DNA from: a virus
Strand: one strand, 5' to 3'
DNA length: 32,471 bases
Virus record (IMG/VR): IMGVR_UViG_3300037635_001997
Location: 1 to 32,471 of that record
The notes under the pieces are model-generated. The model worked only from the letters and a program-made list of their open reading frames with translations, was not told the DNA's origin and searched no databases. Both the position numbers and the translations under genes were made by a program. Of the stretch, positions 11,001 to 32,471 are shown in pieces (position 1 is the first letter of the stretch; the number at the start of each line of letters is the position of its first letter).

Positions 11001-13069
11001 AGAAGCTGCTGGAAATACTGGCGATTCTCCTCCTCTTTCATCTGAAGCTGTTCGAATACCTCCTCGGTTGCCTCGTGTGCTGTATCCACCTCGGCGAGTG
11101 TGTCACCAGTCAACCTATCAAACACCTCGAAGGTGGGCTTATCAGGAGTCCGGCGAACGGATGGTGAGACACCGAAGGTCTCCGCGTCCTCATTGGTCTG
11201 AGTGCGCATCTTTTGCATCTCCTCCAACTCCATAACGCTCGCTTGCGCGGTCTCAGACCAGGGAGCCCGTGTCTTGACGGCATTCTGGAAAGCCTCCACC
11301 ATCTCACGCGGATTCTTAGCCTCATCGAGCTTGGCGCTCGCCTCCTCTGTGATGCCGAAAGCTTTACGCTCCAATGGTGATGCGGTCTTCATCGCCTCAG
11401 CCCTGCTCTCCATCGACATGCCTCGACCAGCAACAATGGCACCCAACGGAGCCACTGCCACAAAGGTCGTGAGAGCCTTGTTGAAGTAGCCATCGAAGTG
11501 ACCATCCTCGCCATTCTTCCACTCGATATCGGGAACAATAGGATTGAATTCCTTCAAGGAATTAGTGATATCCTGCACGAGATCGGTAGTCGCGTGCTGA
11601 GTAAGCTCCACCGTAGTCTCCGCAGCCCCAGCGACAAACATCTTCGTCCCGAAGCGGCCCAACTTATTCGCAAAGATATTATCGATCTTGCCGAAAACCT
11701 TCCCCATCCCAGGTATCCTACCAGTCAATCCATATGACTGGAACTTCTCCAGAAGCATATTGGGAACAGCAGACACCATCGACATACCGCCAGCGAGATG
11801 ATACGCATCCTCCCGTGATCCGCCATTGGCTAGAATCTCACGTCGATACTTCTCACGATCAAATTCCTTCATCGTGCCGAATGACAGTGGCATACCCACA
11901 TACGGAATGAATGCTATCGCACTCGTAGTCAAGGCTCCGGGCATCGCGTAGACCCCCTCCTCAATAGCTCGCAATGTTGTATCCTTTGCTGCGAGTCCAC
12001 GCACTGGGTCCCAGTCCTGCTCATACGTATTCTGAAGTTCAAGCTGCCAATCGACCCCATCTCGCCAATCCCGGACCTCCTGCTCGTTTTCCTTGCGCTT
12101 CTCAATCGACCACTTCCTCGATCCCCAAGTGGCCCAGGGGGAATTTTCCGCCCATGGACCCACGAAGACATTGTGTGGAGCCACCTGCAGAACGTTTCTA
12201 AAATACTCCTCCGTTGCAAACGCTGTCCTGTCAAGAGCACCCATCACACCGCGCTTCGCGCTCGTCCCAAAGTTTGCGAGAAAGGAATTGCCTGCCTCAC
12301 TAGGATATTCCGTCGCGAGATCACGCAAGCTTGCGATGAAGAGATCCTTCTCCTCATCCGAGTAGTCCTTTGTTCTCCTCCATGCAAGAGCGAGCCATTG
12401 ATCCTCAGTGCCCATGTCATTGAAGGTTGTCCTGAGATCGTGAAGCATATCCACCCCGAACTTCTCCCGGATCGCATCCTGATTCTTCTGCCACCGATCG
12501 TTGATCTCCAGTCTATTAGCCTTTGTGAATTCGGCGTTCTCGTCACTCCACGCCCATTCCTTGAAATCCTTAAGGGCTTGTCCGCCTCCCGACATAGCTG
12601 AGAGTGTAGCTCTGCGGTCTAGATCATCCCAGAACGCTTGTTCCTTATCCTCACGCGCAAAATCACCCCTCATAGCCTCAAGGAATGCTGCATCATCCCC
12701 CGCGCCTGCACCATTGAATTTATGGTTCGCGATAGAATCCCTCAGTATGTCATGATCATTGGATGGTCGCTCGTGCTCCGGGAAGATCGAATCGATGTAT
12801 CCAGACACCAGCACGCGATTCCGCACCTCTGTCGTCTGCTCAGGCTCGAATTTATCGAAGTCCAGAGTGTGCTTCTTAATGGTCTTGTAGTTATCATGAC
12901 GGATCTTCAACCCCTCCTCCTGATACTTCTTCTCTGCCTCGATAGAGGGACGGAGGAGATCCTGCTCGAACGACTGCTCCTCAGCATAAGCCTCGGGAGT
13001 GAATGATGGAATCTGATCTGGTGGAGTGCTGCTGCTGAACCCTTCGTTGGAGGTAATTGTGGTTGCCAT
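5063..13069 (-). CDS. Giant internal virion protein (gp16 position) with zincin and ADP-ribosyltransferase domains
   Basis: 2668 residues, a quarter of the window. Layout: about 1-700 helical, with hydrophobic segments near 390 and 540; a zincin motif LIHERGHAKRR (His790, Glu791, His794) with a possible third ligand Glu848 in LDEAVAEL; a PARP-like ART domain about 1080-1345, with HGTPHKVDKF (His1084), YGWGLYFAE (Tyr1112) and a closing NYVIF (Asn1341); a second possible ART-like domain about 1376-1505 (YRIQHQPSPDD, VTIYRVVP, GDWVTIS); a coiled, Lys/Glu-rich 1650-2000; and a C-terminal part with hydrophobic segments around 2555-2615. Position after gp14- and gp15-like genes implies an ejected virion protein. 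The domains resemble those called polyvalent in mobile-element proteins, which act on the newly infected host. No lytic transglycosylase motif was recognised. Confidence 0.85.
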   Translation of the reverse strand: MATTITSNEGFSSSTPPDQIPSFTPEAYAEEQSFEQDLLRPSIEAEKKYQEEGLKIRHDNYKTIKKHTLDFDKFEPEQTTEVRNRVLVSGYIDSIFPEHERPSNDHDILRDSIANHKFNGAGAGDDAAFLEAMRGDFAREDKEQAFWDDLDRRATLSAMSGGGQALKDFKEWAWSDENAEFTKANRLEINDRWQKNQDAIREKFGVDMLHDLRTTFNDMGTEDQWLALAWRRTKDYSDEEKDLFIASLRDLATEYPSEAGNSFLANFGTSAKRGVMGALDRTAFATEEYFRNVLQVAPHNVFVGPWAENSPWATWGSRKWSIEKRKENEQEVRDWRDGVDWQLELQNTYEQDWDPVRGLAAKDTTLRAIEEGVYAMPGALTTSAIAFIPYVGMPLSFGTMKEFDREKYRREILANGGSREDAYHLAGGMSMVSAVPNMLLEKFQSYGLTGRIPGMGKVFGKIDNIFANKLGRFGTKMFVAGAAETTVELTQHATTDLVQDITNSLKEFNPIVPDIEWKNGEDGHFDGYFNKALTTFVAVAPLGAIVAGRGMSMESRAEAMKTASPLERKAFGITEEASAKLDEAKNPREMVEAFQNAVKTRAPWSETAQASVMELEEMQKMRTQTNEDAETFGVSPSVRRTPDKPTFEVFDRLTGDTLAEVDTAHEATEEVFEQLQMKEEENRQYFQQLLASFEAASLDVEQSGEAVEVGTGTFTDADAEAAMPGSDRRLQTERELLEQRDGGTGAVAQEVMSEGQSGHIAGVYVPAGHMGRKEAVTQIHNGSSVLTLIHERGHAKRRKLMESGAWTRADQISSMRELDNLIAKVGEKFLPENFEGLSDYDQEVALDEAVAELSESLALTSRKGKNSKMGGLIQRSLSAMVQARVPGAAQLKSFLGSMRDFFGLQLRRATIIRKAVRDGNLDQAQVDQLTDMLVGTNSQEVFEQEREAIPTQMVDGQQVTQEGDAKFQEALEHASKGWVYYTHDQIKRVLREGKTAQAETLLERLEVGVAQSEQKSLSEGELKKLEEARQAVEDQQVDTPFSTGKAGLLSLGNTTVTPNAETKTYPTKDGGVVGPASFSITAHHGTPHKVDKFSTKNIGTGEGAQAYGWGLYFAESEDVARDYKNRLTDWNSAGVYSFQGEQYASDDFTSPERHAIAHVFHNGIESARKLSEVLLKDARNGEPYTEEQGGLPYYERLAKTIESIQSESDITFDQGSLYTVDLNVEQDELLDWDKPMGEQSELVRKVVGYVERNPDAEVALIRKAKEEGWFNSERWKREEEKMYETIDAAAEFSGKDGAEYYRDFLLRGGDKQASEALAAAGIKGIRYLDGDSRSNGEGTSNYVIFNDADITITEENGQVVDTASPSFSITPADTSYRIQHQPSPDDATLNDLTEMFGEDIYGPNAAQYYGAGMTGESEVLNIFKKVRGNPEAKVTIYRVVPASADQINAGDWVTISKAAADEMNNSEFLGVDSSGNPQESKIISKVVMAKEVTWPGDSMQEQGYFPSSPSFSPGDARMLSDLSENVMRRVRAPEARAVVFEQLVDRIDALKRDVSKMIFGGTVEQEALPDARSMKSLKKEAAFRQAARHDELEMELDSEMRTLGADLAVSVKDMPVHSALIDGGYKLTTKKKALTEGRMQETDGDFDDAGGLHPSVFGGDTMPDVAAQALAGLQQDGQVILQEGTVSELYDALAQEWQQVQENRQRNKEAKSNIRNTAKQARTEANEWLEAEVAKQKKHYNPVARIRRSLVMYDAVLKTLPPELRGKMGGFVQIGKLNSDQKRLEFLEKKLEQLDVEVDKWISGKHRKQIEKIFKANRPKKKSSGQAKVDSNFKFADLVMKIEKLSKLTREEVEAKILKIDGKLETETDEAEIQKLTEKRDNLAVFGNIDGMKANALGDFYQNLNTIHRQGKLLKAMSDEQFNQFLEETISIVNNDVTGGRGDLNQSDAKLLKDARRKRKINLKYLGAEHIELEGMSDFQRKNISFEWLMNNISRGNKDAETMKSKTHERLSTMVHLSTTREDRANMETQEEYREMIGEIFGVKVGGQLSIGTGIEDVMAELERIDETNISKMEYGKDGRSSTKRLPASKVQSILNGEATIEALGISEADWAAIQARYAEIQESGKKIKSNTRVEYESQHQGKAQNMALSQSQALNLTMLWRQEGLKGSMEHEGYSEQTMKDMEEFLSPESKRLREWLTIKYEENYHKINEVFRVQNGYSLPKTDFYSPAVRIAQKEAKEMSIDSEGRQAMSVDPNFTITRTANKAPMDQEAGALSIYVSHTLQTNHYTSWADTVKTLRSVFSDQTLRDNIKGYVGSDAIKTIEERIQWFADGGNRKATHIAWMDKLRAAHTYNSLSFKWSIMVKQLTSLPAYAFDMGIGNFAKYSARFMKHPVKNMLDMWNTDYVQTRFKKGYERDVIDGLRSKAGANKFKKALQVGMLSGKLGDIAPVMIGGWIAREHAYDQAKRDGMTDADAKRKAEIVSEMVSDRSQQAGGLKDLSSFQGDGSVFKLFTMYKTSPRQYYANVYESGLDMLAGKKKGKTQFARRAFIAHMLLPLAFQFVSDVTRMGLRPDDEDAFSGENYLRAMLLGPLNGLFIAGDAIDIMISAISGAKVWAKEIPILGGVMELSRGGDFEKAADNIIRGIGKLTPGAFTFYDIITDEYKRLMN

Positions 13070-13072
13070 AGT

Positions 13073-15175
13073 TTATGCGTTAAGTTCTTTGAGTCTACGG
13101 ACCCCGAGGAGTCTGTTTGCTGGGTACGAGCTAACCTGCACCCTGTTGCCTTGATTGCCACCGAGGACGCGCATTCTGCCATTTTTATCGTATCCCTGAA
13201 AAAATCCCACGTGACCCTGCCAAGATTTTTGTGACCCCCACCGAAACACCACAACGTCTCCCGGTTGCGCGGATCGCGGATGCACGGATCTACCGACATC
13301 CAGCCAGGACTGAGCATTCAGTCTGCCAGTGTGCTCTAGCCCAGCCTCCTCCGCCACACCATTAACGAAGGCGGAACACCATGCTGTTGAGTCTGAGTGA
13401 TTATTCTTGTCGATCTGGTTGATCCATTTGCTGATCTGGGGATTGTTGCCAGATCCTGGAATCTCCTGAATACCAAGATAGCTCTGAGCGACACGTAGCG
13501 CGTCACCAGTTCCCACTGATGCTGTGGTCCGATCTCCCTGCTTCTGAAGCATCTTCGACTTGATGCTCTCCGTGGTAAATTCAACACCTAAGCTGTGAGC
13601 TTTCTGCTGGATCTCTTCAGGCGTTGCATCTGGATTACGATCAAGAAACTTCATGAACTTCTGACGAAGCTGACCTTTGATGCGCGTGTTCTCAACCTGC
13701 CGCTCACGCTCGGCACGCGCCGCCCTCCCTGCTGCCGTCGGATCAACCACCGTGGAAGATAGTGGTTTCTCGTGACGAATAGCGTCGAGCACTGCACGCT
13801 TACCTGCCGGGTAGTCATCATCCTGCTTCCACCCGGCACTCCAGTGTCGCTTCACCAACTCGCGAGGATCTTTCCCCTTTTTACTCCCCTCACCAAACCA
13901 CTTCTTCGAAGCTGCCACGATCTCTTCCGCGTGATCCTCTTGGAATCCTGCGCGTAGCAGGTTTTCTGGATCGGATAGGAAGTCATCGTATAGATGGGCG
14001 CTGAGTGACATCTCAACCTGTGGAGCCGCCTCCGGTATAAGGGCGCTACTGCCCCCGAGTGATTCCTCGAATATTTTCATGGAGACATCCCTCTTCTCCT
14101 TAGACGCAGCCCATTGCCCTGATCGCTTCGCTTTGAGAACCCTGGTATATTCCGCCTTCTGATCGGGGTCCTTTATCTGCCTGATCATCCCCGAAATCTT
14201 CACGAAGTCATTATCCGTCTCGTCCGCATCCTCCGCAGAATACGACGCGATGAGATCCCCTACCTGTCCAAGCAGTGTTGGTTGGTAGACGCTACTGGTG
14301 CGGATACCCTCCGCGAGATACTCCTGACGCTTGATGTGCTCATCCCGCAGCGACTCCCGTGCTTTAGGACGCAAGTGGGGGGTCATCGCCTCTAGCTGGT
14401 CGATGCTCATCTCGTCACTGTAAATCAAATCAAGGACATTATCGGTCTCCTCGTATCCCTTATTTCGCCGAACCGTCTTAGCATGACTCTGAAGAGCGAG
14501 CCAATCGCCAGCCATGTCACCCTCCCAAGGCTCCTTATTCCTCTCAGCCCAGCCCATGGGATCTCCTGCAATCTCATTCATCGCATCCTCCTTCACCTGC
14601 TTCTTGGCCTGATCAACCTGACGCATGCCAACCTCCTCCAGTTGCACCTCGATCATCTCCTTAGTGAGGTAAACGCCCTCGGAGTCACGGATGAGTTGAG
14701 ATGCACCGGCGAAGTCGTTGTCAGCTAAGCGGTTCTTAATCCGCTCGTTGTTGATCTGGCGACCATTGCGGACCTGCTGGAGGGAGGCATTAGTGGTGAT
14801 CTTGTTGAGTCGAGTGGCTCCGGCATGATTGAGCCTCTCGGTGAGTTCGTTGCGGAACTTACCCGTGTAAGCATCATTACTAAGGATCTTGGCTTTCGCC
14901 TCCTCGAAGTGCTGCTTGGCAATCCCCGCATGCAACCTGGGATCTGGTGTCCGGGCTAGCTTGGCCTGCAATGCCCCCTCAGCCTCCGAGAATTGAAGCT
15001 CGGCTTGACCGGTCCACTGGCGCTTCTGCTCATCGTGCATCTGCTCCGCGAGCTTGCCAGTCTGAGCGATAGCCCCACCGAGATTACTGACAGCACGAGT
15101 CTGCGCTGAGTTGTCCTGCGCTCTCTGCTGTGGGATGCCCCCGCCAGCTTGTCCTTTTCCGATTGGTTGTGCCAT
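13073..15175 (-). CDS. Internal virion protein C (gp15-like) with C-terminal CHAP/NlpC-type hydrolase
   Basis: A 700-residue ejection-type protein. About 1-560 is helical and charged, beginning with a Gln-rich stretch (GGGIPQQRAQDNSAQTRAV). About 565-700 is a cysteine peptidase/amidase domain of the CHAP/NlpC-P60 type: YLGIQEIPGSGNNPQISKW, then STAWCSAFVNGVAEEAG with catalytic Cys600, GDVVVFRWG, and GHVGFF with His655. This domain probably cuts cell-wall peptide bonds during entry. In T7 the virion peptidoglycan activity is a transglycosylase in gp16, so the activity appears to have moved to a different fold and subunit here. Next to the giant gp16-position gene, with 3 bases between them. 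Confidence 0.85.
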   Translation of the reverse strand: MAQPIGKGQAGGGIPQQRAQDNSAQTRAVSNLGGAIAQTGKLAEQMHDEQKRQWTGQAELQFSEAEGALQAKLARTPDPRLHAGIAKQHFEEAKAKILSNDAYTGKFRNELTERLNHAGATRLNKITTNASLQQVRNGRQINNERIKNRLADNDFAGASQLIRDSEGVYLTKEMIEVQLEEVGMRQVDQAKKQVKEDAMNEIAGDPMGWAERNKEPWEGDMAGDWLALQSHAKTVRRNKGYEETDNVLDLIYSDEMSIDQLEAMTPHLRPKARESLRDEHIKRQEYLAEGIRTSSVYQPTLLGQVGDLIASYSAEDADETDNDFVKISGMIRQIKDPDQKAEYTRVLKAKRSGQWAASKEKRDVSMKIFEESLGGSSALIPEAAPQVEMSLSAHLYDDFLSDPENLLRAGFQEDHAEEIVAASKKWFGEGSKKGKDPRELVKRHWSAGWKQDDDYPAGKRAVLDAIRHEKPLSSTVVDPTAAGRAARAERERQVENTRIKGQLRQKFMKFLDRNPDATPEEIQQKAHSLGVEFTTESIKSKMLQKQGDRTTASVGTGDALRVAQSYLGIQEIPGSGNNPQISKWINQIDKNNHSDSTAWCSAFVNGVAEEAGLEHTGRLNAQSWLDVGRSVHPRSAQPGDVVVFRWGSQKSWQGHVGFFQGYDKNGRMRVLGGNQGNRVQVSSYPANRLLGVRRLKELNA

Positions 15176-26294: not shown

Positions 26295-27937
26295 TATGAG
26301 AGTGCGCCTAGCATAGCCTCAGGGTCTTGGACGGAAGAGAGATCCTTGGCCACACCGCCTGCGGTCTGAGCCATCTCTGCCATCTGAGCCTGTTGAGCTG
26401 CTTGCTGTTGAGCTTCCTGCTGTTCCTGATACTCGTCCTCGCTGAGGAGATCGTCCTCGTCCTGACCGAGATCACGCCAGATACGTGTCTGGATCTTCTT
26501 AATGTCGTGGACATTGGCACGGCCATCAGCAGCAGCCAGGTTGACGATTGCATCCATCATGCCCATGGCCTCGACGGCTTTGGAGCGCTTGTGGTTGCTT
26601 GTGAAGGTGTTGTCGAAAGCAAACTGCGGCATGCGTGGCTTCCCTGTGACCTCATTGTAGGCTTCATCTGGTAGCTCAATCACTCCACGCTCGACGAGGG
26701 AGTTGAATGCCCAGCCAACGATTGGCTTGGTGTGATCCTGCTCGAGTGCTGTGAGTGTGGGATTCGCCTGAGCATTAAGCTCTTCCCGCCTCATGTTGGC
26801 CTCGGTAGCAGTCATCTCACCCTGGTTGCGGTTGAACATGTTGAACAGATGCCCGTGGTAAGCCTCATCGATGGAGTCTTGCAGCTTGCTCCAGATATCC
26901 ATGCCTACCTGATAGTTGCCACCACCAGAGAGCTCATAGACTGGATTCTTACCAGCGGCAGAGGTTTCGGCGTAGTAATTGACCTCAGCAGCACCAAGAC
27001 CAACACCCTCCTCCTTCATGTAGCTAGGAGCCATGACCGGTGGGACAGCAGCACGCTCACCCATCACCATCATGAATTTCCCGGCGTAGTTGGCCTTGTA
27101 TGCATCTGGGAGGATCTCATGGGCGGGACAGTAGCCCCAAGGACTTCCATCGACCTCGTAGCGACTGGATACAATCTCGAAGTGATCATTGCCGGAGTCG
27201 AGCACGACATGCTTGCTGTCACGCTCAACGACCTTCACGGAGTATGCCATGCCCTTGTTGCCAGCATCGGCCTTCATCTTCCACTTAGGCTGCTTCTCGA
27301 TGACAACGAGGAAATCGTGTGTGGTGCTACGACGCTGAGGGTCTGCTGCCTCTTGCTGTAGCTTCGTAGAAAGGTTCTCACGCCCCCACATCTCAGCAGC
27401 ACGGTAGGCAGGCCATTTGTAGCAGGCTCCGAAGGTATCGACCTTCTCAGAATGATCGTGGTCGATGACGTAGTTGAGGGGATCGAAGCGACAGAAGTTC
27501 ATGACTTCCTCGCCATTGTCATCCTGCTCCCACTTCATTCGCATCGTCCCGGTTCCCAGCTGAGACCGATCAAAGATGGCGCGGTGATTGACTGTGTGGA
27601 AGTTGGAAGAGCGTAGGTAATGCATGACAGCCTCTCCTGCTTCACGGTAGACCTTCTCGAGACTGAGGTTCTTGCGATCCTCCCATGCTGGACGCATCAC
27701 AAGCCAGTCACGGTCGCGAGGATACAGCATCGAAGTGATGCCGTTGGCCTGCATGCGGGACTTAGTTCTCAGTGTCGTATCGTAAATCTCATTGTGTGGC
27801 ACGTATCCACCAACATTCCCACGGCCATTGTAGTTGCGGGAGTTCATGAGCCAAGCAGTCTCCTGCCATAGATACTCATGAGGGAGGCGTAGTGCCTCCA
27901 ACTGCGTGAATCGCTCGACCGTATCCTTGCCTGTCAT
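26294..27937 (-). CDS. Portal (head-tail connector) protein, T7 gp8-like
   Basis: A 547-residue portal of the podovirus head-to-tail connecting family. The N-terminal part is characteristic: LPHEYLWQETAWLMNSRNY, TTLRTKSRMQANGITSMLYP and WLVMRPAW, followed by a GTGTMRMKWEQ segment. The middle holds the RNQGEMTATEANMRREE stretch typical of the portal stem and wing region. The C terminus is Gln/Ala-rich and probably forms the crown or barrel helices. Twelve copies would form the packaging vertex through which the terminase drives DNA and to which the tail tube attaches. It lies directly after the 56-aa protein and ends in a TAATG overlap with the next gene. Confidence 0.93.
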   Translation of the reverse strand: MTGKDTVERFTQLEALRLPHEYLWQETAWLMNSRNYNGRGNVGGYVPHNEIYDTTLRTKSRMQANGITSMLYPRDRDWLVMRPAWEDRKNLSLEKVYREAGEAVMHYLRSSNFHTVNHRAIFDRSQLGTGTMRMKWEQDDNGEEVMNFCRFDPLNYVIDHDHSEKVDTFGACYKWPAYRAAEMWGRENLSTKLQQEAADPQRRSTTHDFLVVIEKQPKWKMKADAGNKGMAYSVKVVERDSKHVVLDSGNDHFEIVSSRYEVDGSPWGYCPAHEILPDAYKANYAGKFMMVMGERAAVPPVMAPSYMKEEGVGLGAAEVNYYAETSAAGKNPVYELSGGGNYQVGMDIWSKLQDSIDEAYHGHLFNMFNRNQGEMTATEANMRREELNAQANPTLTALEQDHTKPIVGWAFNSLVERGVIELPDEAYNEVTGKPRMPQFAFDNTFTSNHKRSKAVEAMGMMDAIVNLAAADGRANVHDIKKIQTRIWRDLGQDEDDLLSEDEYQEQQEAQQQAAQQAQMAEMAQTAGGVAKDLSSVQDPEAMLGALS

Positions 27938-28147: not shown

Positions 28148-29455
28148 CTATAGGTTGCCGACACCGATAGTCCTCTGTTTACCCGGCCCAGTGGACTCGA
28201 ACGTCCTTAGCTCGGGCAGCATCTTGTTCTGGATTGCCTCAGAGATATATCCGAATGCATCAGCCGGGTGTGACGACCAGTCATGAGCTATTTTGTTCTC
28301 GATGTAGCCTCCTAGACGGCTCTCCTTGCGATGGTATGCACTAAGAGCTTCGATTAAACCACCCTCACCGGCTAAAGACTCATGAAACCAGAGCTGATTG
28401 AACATATCTGTCATCATGCGGATGCGCTTCTCGTCTGCACCATGAGGGCCGCGTGGTAGAGTCTTCACGTTCATGAGCCCTGATTCCAACAGCTTGTCGG
28501 CAAAGGACATATTGTCCGCATGCTTGTTGTCTCCATCATGTGGAAGGAAGTGATACCCGTAGTTGTAGCCCTTGGCTATCATATGAGCTACGCGCTCGCC
28601 GGTCTTGAGATCCAGACCAGAGTCGCAGTCGATTATACGATAAGTCAGACCCACACGCTGGAAGTAGATGACGCAAGTATTTGCAGGAGCTCCCAAGTCC
28701 CAGGTTGTATGGACCAGTGCAGACTCATCGATGGGGAATGGTCCGATGCGCCCCTCGTTCTCAGCCCTAGCCATGTCGGCAGCGTAGATTGCGCCAGGTC
28801 TACCAATGGAGAAGTCGCACTCGTATTCCTGTCTGAAGTCAGAATCGGACACGGTATAGTCATCCTGGATGCTTTTAAGCTCCTCAGCAGGCAATATTCC
28901 ACTCTCGCTTGCACGGATGACCGCGCTGTGCCAATCCTCAGCAGCCTCAGCCTGCAAATGGCGCTTGTAGAAAGCATTCTTCCCCTTGGGTGTGCCGATA
29001 AACCATGCGAACCCCTGATAATCGGAGAGACACGGACGGATTACCTGCGACCACGCAGCGGGAACGATGTCGGCTGGCTCATCCATGATCACACCGTCGA
29101 GGTAGATTCCCCGCATCCGATCATAGTTATCACCAGAGTAGAGCCTGATGGTTGCGCGATTTGGCAGAGTGACAGTCAAGTCGGACTCGTTGATCTTCAC
29201 CTGAGGGACTTTACCTAGGAAATCTTTGAGGTATGCCCATGCGATGTCCTTGGCTTGATCCCTTGTGGGTGCAACGTACGCGAAACGAGGGGGAGGGCCG
29301 GGTCTCTTGAGTTCGAATGCTACCTTGATGAGCTTCTGAAGGACCGCGAACGTCTTACCGGCACGACGATGAGCGACGATGCAAGCCCATCTCTTGTTAC
29401 TGTGGAGGAATGGTTTGAATGCCGCCCTCGGATTTAGCTCTAGAGTGACGTTCAT
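28148..29455 (-). CDS. terL: Terminase large subunit (packaging ATPase/nuclease)
   Basis: A 435-residue packaging motor. The ATPase half has a Walker A variant AHRRAGKT (residues 28-35), a Walker B VIMDEP (Asp125, Glu126) and a coupling-type segment WFIGTPKGKN near 151-160. The nuclease half starts with the RNase H-like strand HTTWDLGAP (Asp253), followed by HDGDNKHADN near 306-315, and ends with HPADAFGYISEAI, whose Asp is the usual third metal ligand. Length and motif order fit a complete protein. It is coupled to the small subunit by an ATGA overlap. In T7 the terminase genes close the genome; here they open the structural block. Confidence 0.95.
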   Translation of the reverse strand: MNVTLELNPRAAFKPFLHSNKRWACIVAHRRAGKTFAVLQKLIKVAFELKRPGPPPRFAYVAPTRDQAKDIAWAYLKDFLGKVPQVKINESDLTVTLPNRATIRLYSGDNYDRMRGIYLDGVIMDEPADIVPAAWSQVIRPCLSDYQGFAWFIGTPKGKNAFYKRHLQAEAAEDWHSAVIRASESGILPAEELKSIQDDYTVSDSDFRQEYECDFSIGRPGAIYAADMARAENEGRIGPFPIDESALVHTTWDLGAPANTCVIYFQRVGLTYRIIDCDSGLDLKTGERVAHMIAKGYNYGYHFLPHDGDNKHADNMSFADKLLESGLMNVKTLPRGPHGADEKRIRMMTDMFNQLWFHESLAGEGGLIEALSAYHRKESRLGGYIENKIAHDWSSHPADAFGYISEAIQNKMLPELRTFESTGPGKQRTIGVGNL

Positions 29456-29816: not shown

Positions 29817-30116
29817 TTAAGAGATGGATTCTTCCGCCACTATCTCCTTGAATTTCTTGCTCAACAAGAATTTTCGGGCCGCACGTCGAGCGAGTCTGGC
29901 TGTTCGAGCCTTGGACATAATGTGATTGGTGGGCAGTGGTCCTCCCCGTTCCTCGATCATCTCTTTCCAATCCTCAACTGCTTGAGCGATTGTATTGCGG
30001 AAAGGGCCATGGATGTCCTTGCCCTGTCGTTCTGTTGTCACCTTGCGAAAGATCTTCGCAAAGTAAAACCCGTCTTGTTCGTAAATGCCCTCTGGGAGGC
30101 CTCGGTTATTGGTCAT
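29817..30116 (-). CDS. Hypothetical small basic protein upstream of terminase
   Basis: 99 residues, not assigned to a family. The first 60 residues hold an aromatic, mixed beta-type segment (GIYEQDGFYFAKIFRKV) followed by a helix (TIAQAVEDWKEMIEERG), an arrangement reminiscent of small AP2-like phage DNA-binding domains. The C-terminal third is strongly basic and helical (SKARTARLARRAARKFL), consistent with nucleic-acid contact. It overlaps the metallopeptidase-like gene by 11 bases and ends 5 bases before the small terminase start, so it is part of the packaging operon. A role in DNA binding or packaging is inference from charge and position only. Confidence 0.6.
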   Translation of the reverse strand: MTNNRGLPEGIYEQDGFYFAKIFRKVTTERQGKDIHGPFRNTIAQAVEDWKEMIEERGGPLPTNHIMSKARTARLARRAARKFLLSKKFKEIVAEESIS

Positions 30117-30411
30117 TGGTTCTGTTCTTTAGTCGTTTTAGGATTCGTTCATATGCTGGGAAAAAGATCTCGTCGATGCAGCGGACGCATGATTCCTCCT
30201 GAAATGAGTCGAGGAAGGAGATCCCAGACAGGTGGAAGGCTGCGTGGAGCATCTCATGCCGTAGGGTGGGCAAGTATTCCTGCTCTGGGAGATTCTCAGC
30301 GAGTTGAATGGTTCGTTTGTCATGTGAATACTGCCCGTAGCAGTCATCGAGTTCTGTTCGTTGTATTTTAATTCTATGGCCAGCGATCATGACTGAGTTG
30401 ATTGCTGTCAT
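30106..30411 (-). CDS. Small zinc metallopeptidase-like protein (HExxH)
   Basis: A 101-residue protein with a zincin signature RHEMLHAAFH (His52, Glu53, His56) inside a predicted helix, preceded by a beta-hairpin-like N-terminal half. The size and motif match the small phage ImmA/SprT-like minimal metallopeptidases that often sit beside terminase genes. A third zinc ligand could be an acidic residue in the CIDEIF segment, but this is not certain. An internal Met8 is an alternative start; neither has an SD. It overlaps the next gene by 11 bases, which implies translational coupling. It is the first gene after the hairpin that follows the methyltransferase. The role in the phage cycle is unknown. 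Confidence 0.65.
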   Translation of the reverse strand: MTAINSVMIAGHRIKIQRTELDDCYGQYSHDKRTIQLAENLPEQEYLPTLRHEMLHAAFHLSGISFLDSFQEESCVRCIDEIFFPAYERILKRLKNRTNDQ

Positions 30412-30499: not shown

Positions 30500-31378
30500 T
30501 TACTGACTCAGCAATCTCCATGCGAGTTCGGCCACTTGTGGAACCTGGCCGTTTCCAATGGATTTAAGTCTGTCCACCCTATGGGCCACCCCATGAGCCA
30601 CTCGACCCACGTTGGGTTCAGTGTGCCAATAGCCCATTCCTCCTTGGTCTTGCCCCTCACTTCCTCGCAGTTGCCCAGCATCCGCTGCATCTTGCCGCTT
30701 GGTGTTCCTGCTGCATCCTCGTTCGCGGATGGAGTTGGCCACATATGCCGCGCCTTCACCTGCTGGCTTAGTCCAATCTGCGCCATCCGGCCTGTCTCCT
30801 TGTCGTAGTGGCGGCAGTTGCTCCCCACGGCCTCCCCCGTCTTGGTTTCCAGCCTTTCGATACTGATGCCGGGTTCCTGTGCTGCGGGAGTTCGCCACAA
30901 TCCAGATCCTGTCCCGCTTGTGAGGGGCGGCAACGTCATGCGCTCCCAACACACCCCATTTTGCATCATACCCCATTTTGGCAAGATCACCGAGGACTCG
31001 GGCAAGTCCTCGTCCCACAAGCATTGGTGAGTTCTCCACGAAGACATGTTTCGGTCGAACTTCACCGATGATTCTCGCCATGTGTCCCCACATACTGGAT
31101 CTCTCTCCATCGATTCCTGCACCTTTTCCTGCGCAAGAGATGTCCTGACAGGGAAAGCCTCCAGAAATGACGTCAACACGGCCTCGCCAAGGTTTTCCGT
31201 CAAAGGTTTGAACGTCATCCCAGATCGGGAAAGCTGGGAGGGTTCCTTCGTTTTGACGGGCAACCAAGACTGAGGCTGGGTAGGGTTCCCATTCGACAGC
31301 GCACACTGTGCGCCATCCAAGGAGATGCCCTCCGAGTATTCCTCCACCAGCGCCTGCGAATAAAGCCAACTCATTCAT
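30500..31378 (-). CDS. dcm: DNA cytosine-5 methyltransferase (Dcm-like)
   Basis: A 292-residue C5-cytosine methyltransferase that transfers methyl from S-adenosylmethionine to cytosine, probably protecting phage DNA from host restriction. Motifs in order: motif I LFAGAGGGILGG at the N terminus (SAM binding), motif IV GGFPCQDIS with catalytic Cys77, motif VI as ENS (Glu115), motif VIII RDRIWIVA, and motif X as SIGNGQVP near the C terminus. The stretch between motifs VIII and X, about 165-260, is the target recognition region and is short, so specificity cannot be read. No Shine-Dalgarno precedes the ATG. A second 288-codon ORF in the +1 frame covers almost the whole gene (see separate entry). 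A strong hairpin lies just past the stop. Enzyme class is secure; a phage-borne orphan methyltransferase without a cognate nuclease in view is typical. Confidence 0.93.
   Translation of the reverse strand: MNELALFAGAGGGILGGHLLGWRTVCAVEWEPYPASVLVARQNEGTLPAFPIWDDVQTFDGKPWRGRVDVISGGFPCQDISCAGKGAGIDGERSSMWGHMARIIGEVRPKHVFVENSPMLVGRGLARVLGDLAKMGYDAKWGVLGAHDVAAPHKRDRIWIVANSRSTGTRHQYRKAGNQDGGGRGEQLPPLRQGDRPDGADWTKPAGEGAAYVANSIRERGCSRNTKRQDAADAGQLRGSEGQDQGGMGYWHTEPNVGRVAHGVAHRVDRLKSIGNGQVPQVAELAWRLLSQ
30508..31374 (-). CDS. Nested +1-frame ORF inside the methyltransferase gene (possible overlapping gene)
   Basis: A 288-codon ORF starting ATG 4 bases after the methyltransferase ATG (ATGAATGAG carries both starts) and stopping 8 bases before the methyltransferase ends. 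It has protein-like composition, rich in Trp, Pro and Ser, with stretches such as SSWRTHQCL, LPKWGMMQNG, MWPTPSANEDAAG and WVEWLMGWPIGWTDL. From memory, sequences of this type occur as predicted phage proteins near or in place of Dcm genes. Part of that resemblance must follow mechanically from the conserved methyltransferase frame: GRVAHGVAHRVDRL read one base later gives WVEWLMGWPIGWTD. What remains unexplained is the lack of stops over 867 bases. It could be a genuine overprinted gene, or an open frame kept by codon composition. I cannot tell whether it is translated. Confidence 0.3.
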   Translation of the reverse strand: MSWLYSQALVEEYSEGISLDGAQCALSNGNPTQPQSWLPVKTKEPSQLSRSGMTFKPLTENLGEAVLTSFLEAFPVRTSLAQEKVQESMERDPVCGDTWRESSVKFDRNMSSWRTHQCLWDEDLPESSVILPKWGMMQNGVCWERMTLPPLTSGTGSGLWRTPAAQEPGISIERLETKTGEAVGSNCRHYDKETGRMAQIGLSQQVKARHMWPTPSANEDAAGTPSGKMQRMLGNCEEVRGKTKEEWAIGTLNPTWVEWLMGWPIGWTDLNPLETARFHKWPNSHGDC

Positions 31379-31383
31379 CTATT

Positions 31384-32471
31384 CTATGCGTGTTCGTAGA
31401 ATCGGCTGACGAGTCCCTTGGTTGCGTGATACTCGTAGCCGGTAGCTGCGCGGATGGATCCCAGGTATCCCTTCTCAGCATGCCATGCGTCAGTAGAGCA
31501 GAGCGCCGGTAGGTATTCTACGAGCAGTCCACGTTGCTCTTCCCAGCCATTAGCGGTCTGAGTGATCACTCTGGTGGGCGTGTTCTTCTTCTTGTGATGC
31601 ACATGGCCCATCTTCAGGTGACGATGCTTGGTTACACCCCACTGTGGAGCGAACTCAGCGGCGATGACAGATTGCCACTGGTTGGCGGCCACACCATCGC
31701 CATGGCTCCAGACCAAGAGATTGTCCCCATGAACGAGGTGTTTCCTATCGCTAGCCTGCATCACGACATTGACGTTTGGGCAGTTGAAATAGAATGCTTT
31801 CAGGACTCTGGCGAGCCACACGCAGGAATGCCAATCGTGATTTCCCTCCACGATGACGATATCCACTTGCTTTGATACTGTGCAGGCGACTTGCACAACC
31901 TCGGTGCAGGCGGCGACAGCGGAGTCGATCACTCTGGAGTAGCGGCTATCAACATCGAGGACGTTGCCCGACTTCTCTGTTTGATTACTGCGATTGTCCG
32001 AATGCAGGATGTCCCCGCCAAAGGTCACAACCATGCGTCCCGGCTTTCGGAAGCGATCTGCGAGCCTCTCGGCCGTGGCCACCATGCGCTCAGTGATAAT
32101 CTTGGTATTGGAGTCGGCCACATTGGTCTCCTCCTTGGTGGCATACATCCCCACATGGGCATCATAGATCGCGATCTCCCCAAGCAGCAGATCGTTATCG
32201 GTCTTGGTGGCCTTCTTCTTCTTGACACGGGCCTTGCCTTGGACGCGCTCACAGAGGGAGTCAACGAATGCTTCCATGTCGGATGCTTGCGGGATCAAGC
32301 GTCTCCATTCCTGAATGGGCTCTCCCTCGGCATTGTATTGCACCGTGGTTTTGTGCAAACTCATCGTAGGGCTGATGGCTGCTGGCGTAAGCCATGGTGT
32401 GTTGCCAGCCTCCTCGGCCTGCTTAATGTGATTAAACACTGTGCGAACGTCCACGCCCAGAGCTTTGGCAA
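31384..32471 (-). CDS. Metallophosphoesterase with N-terminal helix-turn-helix-like segment (5' end outside window)
   Basis: Calcineurin-like metallophosphoesterase, probably a phosphodiesterase or nuclease acting on nucleic acid. The metal-binding motifs appear in family order: D-x-H in YDAHVGM, GGDILHSDN, GNHDWHS, a His in WSHGDG, and GHVHH near the C terminus. The frame stays open to the right edge. A GTG at 32454 could start a 356-residue protein, but the codons before it (AKALG) continue into AKALGVDVRTVFNHIK, which reads like the recognition part of a helix-turn-helix, so the true start is probably upstream and outside the window. Similar phage proteins sit with replication or recombination genes. 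It ends 5 bases before the methyltransferase start, so the two are likely co-transcribed. The phosphoesterase fold is well supported; the substrate is unknown. Confidence 0.85.
   Translation of the reverse strand, partial: AKALGVDVRTVFNHIKQAEEAGNTPWLTPAAISPTMSLHKTTVQYNAEGEPIQEWRRLIPQASDMEAFVDSLCERVQGKARVKKKKATKTDNDLLLGEIAIYDAHVGMYATKEETNVADSNTKIITERMVATAERLADRFRKPGRMVVTFGGDILHSDNRSNQTEKSGNVLDVDSRYSRVIDSAVAACTEVVQVACTVSKQVDIVIVEGNHDWHSCVWLARVLKAFYFNCPNVNVVMQASDRKHLVHGDNLLVWSHGDGVAANQWQSVIAAEFAPQWGVTKHRHLKMGHVHHKKKNTPTRVITQTANGWEEQRGLLVEYLPALCSTDAWHAEKGYLGSIRAATGYEYHATKGLVSRFYEHA

Follow-up and report, generated by a model that had tools for sequence, protein, structure and literature searches.

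Two almost completely overlapping frames of a tailed-phage locus that most probably encode the two subunits of one cytosine-5 DNA methyltransferase

The locus and its double start

The window is the whole 32,471-nucleotide stretch that was analysed, IMG/VR virus record IMGVR_UViG_3300037635_001997, and its genes, among them terminase, head-tail adaptor and tail genes, make it part of a tailed-phage genome. Close to its end lies a methyltransferase (Dcm) frame, which we name alpha, and nested in the +1 frame of alpha is a second open reading frame, which we name beta (Table 1). It had been noticed before that a 288-codon ORF occupies the +1 frame of the methyltransferase gene, with starts 4 nt and stops 8 nt apart, and the coordinates confirm this; that the longest other same-strand overlapping ORF has 136 aa (12907..13317) agrees with the ORF list of the window. 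ORF length alone is weak proof, because antisense ORFs of 232 aa (28520..29218, + strand) and 209 aa (26732..27361, + strand) are also present, opposite the terminase and head-tail adaptor genes; these are probably due to chance. Elsewhere in the window, a 101-aa protein (30106..30411, - strand) contains the string HEMLH, which we take to be a HExxH-like metallopeptidase motif, and gives a weak match to the peptidase family phrog_13742.

Table 1. Features of the alpha-beta locus, in window coordinates
Feature	Coordinates	Strand	Basis
Alpha, C5-methyltransferase large subunit	30500..31378	-	292 aa, ATG; PF00145 1.4e-31, phrog_363 1e-68, AlphaFold M.HhaI-like fold
Beta, nested +1-frame gene	30508..31374	-	288 aa, ATG 4 nt after alpha ATG; open and under purifying selection in relatives; phrog_1008 1.3e-20
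Alpha residues 1-168, catalytic part, motifs I-VIII	30875..31378	-	one-chain profile positions 19-238, 132 bits (identical protein L007); well-predicted domain
Alpha residues 270-292, motif X (RLKSIGNGQVPQVAELAWRLLSQ)	30503..30571	-	one-chain profile positions 329-352, 8 bits; pLDDT ~90 at residues 281-292
Variable segment lying between motifs VIII and IX, DNA of beta residues 165-249 (proposed for target recognition)	30628..30882	-	boundaries approximate; in relatives beta constrained, alpha nearly neutral
Beta residues 250-271, motif IX (GTLNPTWVEWLMGWPIGWTDLN)	30562..30627	-	12-bit match to one-chain profile 304-325, in a stretch that aligns with M.HhaI 270-308
Double start ATGAATGAG: alpha ATG, beta ATG 4 nt on	31370..31378	-	beta ATG position kept in 74/76 distinct relatives; alpha start exactly 4 nt upstream in 190/226 classed loci
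Exonuclease-like gene upstream of alpha	31384..32454	-	phrog_704 7.9e-68; stop 5 nt before alpha ATG

The arrangement of starts was classed in 226 nested loci with a recognisable beta start, leaving 21 of 247 unclassed, and the start codon of alpha was taken as ATG, GTG or TTG. Of the 190 loci with the 4-nt spacing, 142 have a core Shine-Dalgarno tetramer ahead of both starts. Of the 36 other loci, 34 have an alpha start at a greater distance upstream, up to 75 nt, and 26 have the tetramer before the beta ATG. No core Shine-Dalgarno tetramer was found upstream of the window starts. Since these starts have no tetramer and the exonuclease-like gene ends just before the alpha ATG, we propose from the sequence that re-initiation at alpha is likely and that translation of the two genes may be coupled.

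Conservation of the +1 frame

The openness of the +1 frame was counted in an unbiased set of 80 IMG/VR loci (L007-L086, 76 of them distinct) that were found with the alpha (Dcm) protein query only; L007 encodes the same protein as the window alpha. The loci L087-L166 and L168-L326 were found with the beta query or a beta profile, so an open beta was selected there. A frame was counted as open when no stop occurred between the ATG and a point 15 codons short of the end of alpha. By this definition the +1 frame is open in 73 of the 76 distinct relatives, versus an expectation of 0.11 under synonymous permutation or 0.17 under pooled codon usage, and the +2 frame is open in none of them. The mean number of +1 stops per gene is 0.05, versus ~5.6 expected, and 17.5 in the +2 frame; the three exceptions are L018 and L085, with one stop each, and L039, with two. 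When only the window gene (L007) is considered, 1.5% of 200 synonymous-codon permutations leave the +1 frame open, and 0 of 200 do so under pooled usage.

Third positions and site classes give a further view of this conservation. Identity at the fourfold third positions of alpha is 66%, versus 32% under the null (comparisons among 71 sequences, <90% nucleotide identity). For pairwise identity the +2 frame is no clean control, because third-position conservation raises both frames, and a site-class test was used in its place. By this OLGenie-like count (every third pair, 829 pairs), dN/dS of beta is 0.31 (NN/NS) and 0.47 (SN/SS), and that of the +2 control 1.12 and 0.70. Beta is a conserved gene under purifying selection and no accident of codon usage. 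The earlier note had proposed to check whether the +1 frame stays open more often than codon usage predicts and whether the synonymous sites of the Dcm frame are depleted of change, and both were found; it had named frequent +1 stops and normal synonymous variation as evidence to the contrary, and here stops are rare and synonymous sites constrained.

Gene layouts, motifs and the frame under selection

Gene layouts were surveyed in 80 loci with an EWMMG[LF]P-like string, among the matches listed. By manual reading, the matches listed comprise 27 nested, 22 one-frame and 24 split loci, with 7 unclear (no alpha found); automatic labels for the same 80 loci gave 29, 37 and 14. At the split loci alpha is cut short by a stop and is followed by beta as an ORF of its own, which is in the +1 frame of alpha in 21 of 24 and not in the other 3, with a stop-to-stop overlap of 203-371 nt in the four loci resolved by hand (L335, L347, L380, L339). 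All three layouts share one order of segments on the DNA, and the +1 relation is mostly common to the nested and split types.

Some loci depart from these layouts. L393 (10249-11196) has motifs I-VIII and IX in one frame and motif X in another, and could be a frame-swap intermediate or a damaged gene. The one-frame methyltransferases L340, L343 and L390 have a beta-like +1 ORF of 268-289 aa that scores 28-45 bits, either a relic or chance. A longer, split-like variant is seen in L090 and L093 (both from 2001), where beta is 404 and 364 codons long and extends past the alpha stop by 715 and 595 nt. Six loci have one in-frame alpha stop where beta is open, in the catalytic part (L189, L210, L230, L241) or in the linker (L177, L225); these are probably decaying prophage genes, or possibly cases where beta is kept without alpha.

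The methyltransferase motifs were located with a one-chain profile made of 14 of the 22 one-frame enzymes, which were found with a motif-IX-like DNA pattern, so the profile leans to that string. It matches M.HhaI over the catalytic part, and its stretch 'rlsprfvEWmmGlPegwv ... lGNgvvp' aligns to M.HhaI 270-308, weakly when taken by itself (6.2 bits for that domain); we take this region to be motifs IX and X. The profile was scanned over 247 nested loci, which are distinct by alpha sequence and not phylogenetically independent, and beta is in the +1 frame of alpha in all 247. The catalytic motifs I-VIII are found in 243 alphas and 0 betas, motif IX in 18 alphas and 236 betas, and motif X in 232 alphas and 2 betas. 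The window alpha, as L007, has motifs I-VIII and X only, and the C-terminal region of beta carries a stretch like GxLNPTWVEWLMGWPxGWTDL. In the 18 alphas whose match spans motif IX, the printed C-termini have no EWMMG-like string. In 127 of the 247 betas the profile match extends through motif IX from a start no later than position 300, and in 28 from one no later than 275.

The motif IX of beta is not forced by alpha, because at a threshold of >=5 bits 230 of 247 +1 frames read off alpha contain it, versus 14 of 741 permuted +1 frames and 0 of 247 +2 frames; a similarity forced by alpha is thus rejected for motif IX by the permutation and +2 controls. An ordinary single-chain Dcm-type C5-methyltransferase (PF00145) was also rejected, since alpha is without motif IX and its PF00145 match is partial, covering only 4-166 of 324. 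The window beta matches phrog_1008 from position 37 to 285 of 329, short only of the end. This family is matched by 19 of 19 split betas, and these carry motif X at their end, where the match of the window beta stops. A profile-profile comparison of nested beta with split betas gave 99.2% over beta 100-172. With the one-frame enzymes, the same comparison produced nothing beyond an artefact of gap columns at motif X and was replaced by the profile scan with its controls. A search of 40 betas for known Pfam domains gave nothing convincing, and a PDB sequence search with the beta profile gave no match up to E 10. Alpha and beta look like complementary halves of one enzyme, with the chemistry in alpha and the DNA recognition in beta.

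Selection was followed along the gene in close pairs from 179 of the 247 loci, 68 loci without a successful start or landmark search being left out. Between motifs VIII and IX, dN/dS is 0.02-0.04 for beta and 0.86-1.76 for alpha (22 independent pairs with equal linker length), and 557 differences fall on beta wobble positions versus 173 and 126 on the other two. In the catalytic part of the same 22 pairs it is the alpha wobble positions that take most differences, 582 versus 299 and 129. At motif IX, dN/dS is 0.03-0.05 for beta and 0.22-0.30 for alpha (59 overlapping pairs). At motif X, alpha is constrained by NN/SN (0.11) and beta little, doubly synonymous sites being too few for other measures in these 59 overlapping pairs. 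The diverged set shows that beta is constrained opposite alpha 21-60 (0.19, 0.28), that opposite alpha 61-165 the constraint is barely above the +2 control, and that the beta tail after motif IX is under no constraint (1.0-1.3). The selected frame switches along the gene: alpha is selected across the catalytic part and at motif X, beta across the variable segment and at motif IX. The variable segment is where C5-methyltransferases read their target. Because beta is constrained there and alpha is nearly neutral, this segment was assigned to beta; judging from selection, beta appears to be responsible for target recognition, with the part of alpha encoded there looking like a passenger.

The structure model of alpha agrees with this passenger reading. 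AlphaFold gives a well-predicted large domain and a motif X helix, with residues 177-275 at pLDDT <50 and without a small domain, and the best matches of the model are M.HhaI chains (2uyc_A, Z 15.9, rmsd 2.7, 179 aligned). Beta alone is poorly predicted (pLDDT 51), too poorly for a structure search.

Interpretation, spread and known systems

The nested pair is common in phages and prophages. With up to six candidates scored in each genome, a beta match is found in at least 23 of 398 Pseudomonadota genomes (drawn evenly), and at 30 of 30 Pseudomonadota loci inspected alpha overlaps in the same +1 relation. By record titles, the genome contigs with beta matches come from Proteobacteria, Verrucomicrobiales, Planctomycetota and others. 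Among complete E. coli genomes, 4 of 5426 match a Citrobacter nested locus, and three plasmid records have beta. Salmonella phage S9-5 (MW722521) also carries a related locus. The annotation of the pair varies: only alpha is annotated in the Acinetobacter phage ABMM1 record, only beta in that of Pseudomonas phage phPA-G, and only the methyltransferase frame is named in the Mycobacterium phage and E. coli records examined, while Paenibacillus phage Diva has both frames annotated, the second as 'g49 internal gene'.

Based on these results, it is very probable that the two almost completely overlapping frames encode a two-subunit C5-methyltransferase that is like M.EcoHK31I in its working. One cytosine-5 DNA methyltransferase would be made as two polypeptides from two frames of the same DNA. 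Alpha, in frame 0, would provide the large domain, with motifs I-VIII, a disordered passenger stretch and motif X. Beta, in the +1 frame and starting from its own ATG 4 nt downstream, would provide the small domain, with an N-terminal extension from the catalytic-part DNA, the target-recognition segment and motif IX. Both would be translated, and alpha and beta may then assemble into an M.HhaI-like active enzyme, as in the two-polypeptide M.EcoHK31I. With this enzyme the phage probably methylates its own DNA, either against host restriction or for regulation.

Another explanation is programmed frameshifting, where translation starts in alpha, shifts to beta after motif VIII and returns before motif X, making one canonical chain (I-VIII, TRD, IX, X). 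The segment order on the DNA, which equals that of the one-frame relatives (22 of the 80 matches listed), fits such a chain, but two shifts per chain would be required, the separate ATG of beta is retained in 74 of 76 relatives and is often preceded by a Shine-Dalgarno tetramer, and the beta region opposite alpha 21-60 is constrained; we consider frameshifting improbable. Slightly less probable again is that beta is truly overprinted and that its product acts outside the methyltransferase, for example in regulation or anti-restriction. Its long N-terminal extension has no known homologues beyond this group, and in some prophages beta is open though alpha is stopped; yet the selected parts of beta are motif IX and the recognition segment, exactly those that alpha lacks, and in the split relatives motif X is attached to this same module. 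A de novo overprinted gene unrelated to methyltransferases was rejected on the motif IX of beta and its homology to the split betas, and only the N-terminal part of beta may still be overprinted. The earlier idea of an overprinted gene therefore survives as a conserved and selected +1-frame gene and falls as an unrelated new protein, since motif IX and, by selection, the recognition segment are in beta. A chance open frame from codon usage that databases keep as a shadow family has next to no probability: in the window gene by itself (L007) 1.5% of permutations keep the +1 frame open, but 73 of 76 open frames versus 0.11-0.17 expected, the synonymous constraint and a dN/dS that reveals purifying selection in the +1 frame only speak against it, unless codon usage changes along the gene in some manner missed by both nulls. 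The earlier note was right that databases hold such a family (phrog_1008, and one Pseudomonas phage record that annotates only beta), but it is no mere shadow of Dcm.

For the two-subunit enzyme, the origin that we favour, by a small margin over even odds, is a frame-swapped domain, with two compensating frameshifts around the small-domain segment of an ancestral single-chain gene, so that the nested and split types are stages of one process. A first frameshift after motif VIII would give the AquI-like split type, and a second, compensating one before motif X the nested EcoHK31I-like pair. The small-domain segment would have kept its place on the DNA, moved to the +1 frame and been rescued by a +1 start, and alpha would read through the moved segment as a disordered spacer to motif X. 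We call this account the simplest because the segment order is the same across the layouts and the +1 relation mostly the same.

These findings bear on annotation, which often retains one frame of the pair, so that half an enzyme is missing. If alpha were cloned by itself, the protein would probably be inactive and the enzyme wrongly judged 'inactive'. As a case from nature in which one stretch of DNA encodes two domains of an enzyme and the frame under selection changes along the gene, the pair is a strong one, and it may explain the origin of split methyltransferases. It also offers naturally split enzymes in which the recognition half could be exchanged. If the frame swap is true, the sharing of DNA by two domains of one enzyme would be a process common in phages.

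Among the known systems, the small-subunit gene of M.EcoHK31I is said to be nested in another frame of the large-subunit gene, a layout which the nested loci resemble with beta in +1 in 247 of 247; M.EaeI is similar to M.EcoHK31I. In PMC3404938, M.EcoHK31I (YGGCCR) is described with motifs I-VIII and X and a predicted TRD in the large polypeptide and motif IX in the small one, and M.AquI (CYCGRG) with motifs I-VIII and part of the variable region in one polypeptide and the remaining variable region and motifs IX-X in the other. By that description, the nested loci share the motif distribution of M.EcoHK31I, with I-VIII and X in the large polypeptide and IX in the small. They differ in that the TRD of M.EcoHK31I is predicted in its large subunit, according to PMC3404938, whereas the variable segment here is selected in beta, and in that beta is almost co-terminal with alpha (288 versus 292 aa) and widespread in phages. 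The likeness to M.AquI is that I-VIII stand apart from part of the recognition region and IX, a layout shared by the split-gene relatives (24 of the 80 matches listed). The motif X of M.AquI is in its small subunit, whereas in the window it is in alpha (232 of 247 alphas versus 2 of 247 betas), and an M.AquI type was rejected for the nested pair on this ground, as motif X is not with IX in beta.

Two phage systems can also be compared. The family phrog_1008, named 'DNA methyltransferase', is that of the split betas and is matched by the window beta as well, which differs in being without the motif-X end. Paenibacillus phage Diva gp49/gp50 is a nested pair of the same kind, where the beta profile scores 88 bits in the +1 frame; it is distant in sequence and its record states no function. 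Searches of the open-access PMC literature listed no description of the phage nested arrangement. By analogy, the pair would work like M.EcoHK31I, short of proven membership; the two-polypeptide architecture is already known, while the nested layout, its spread and the recognition in beta appear to be new.
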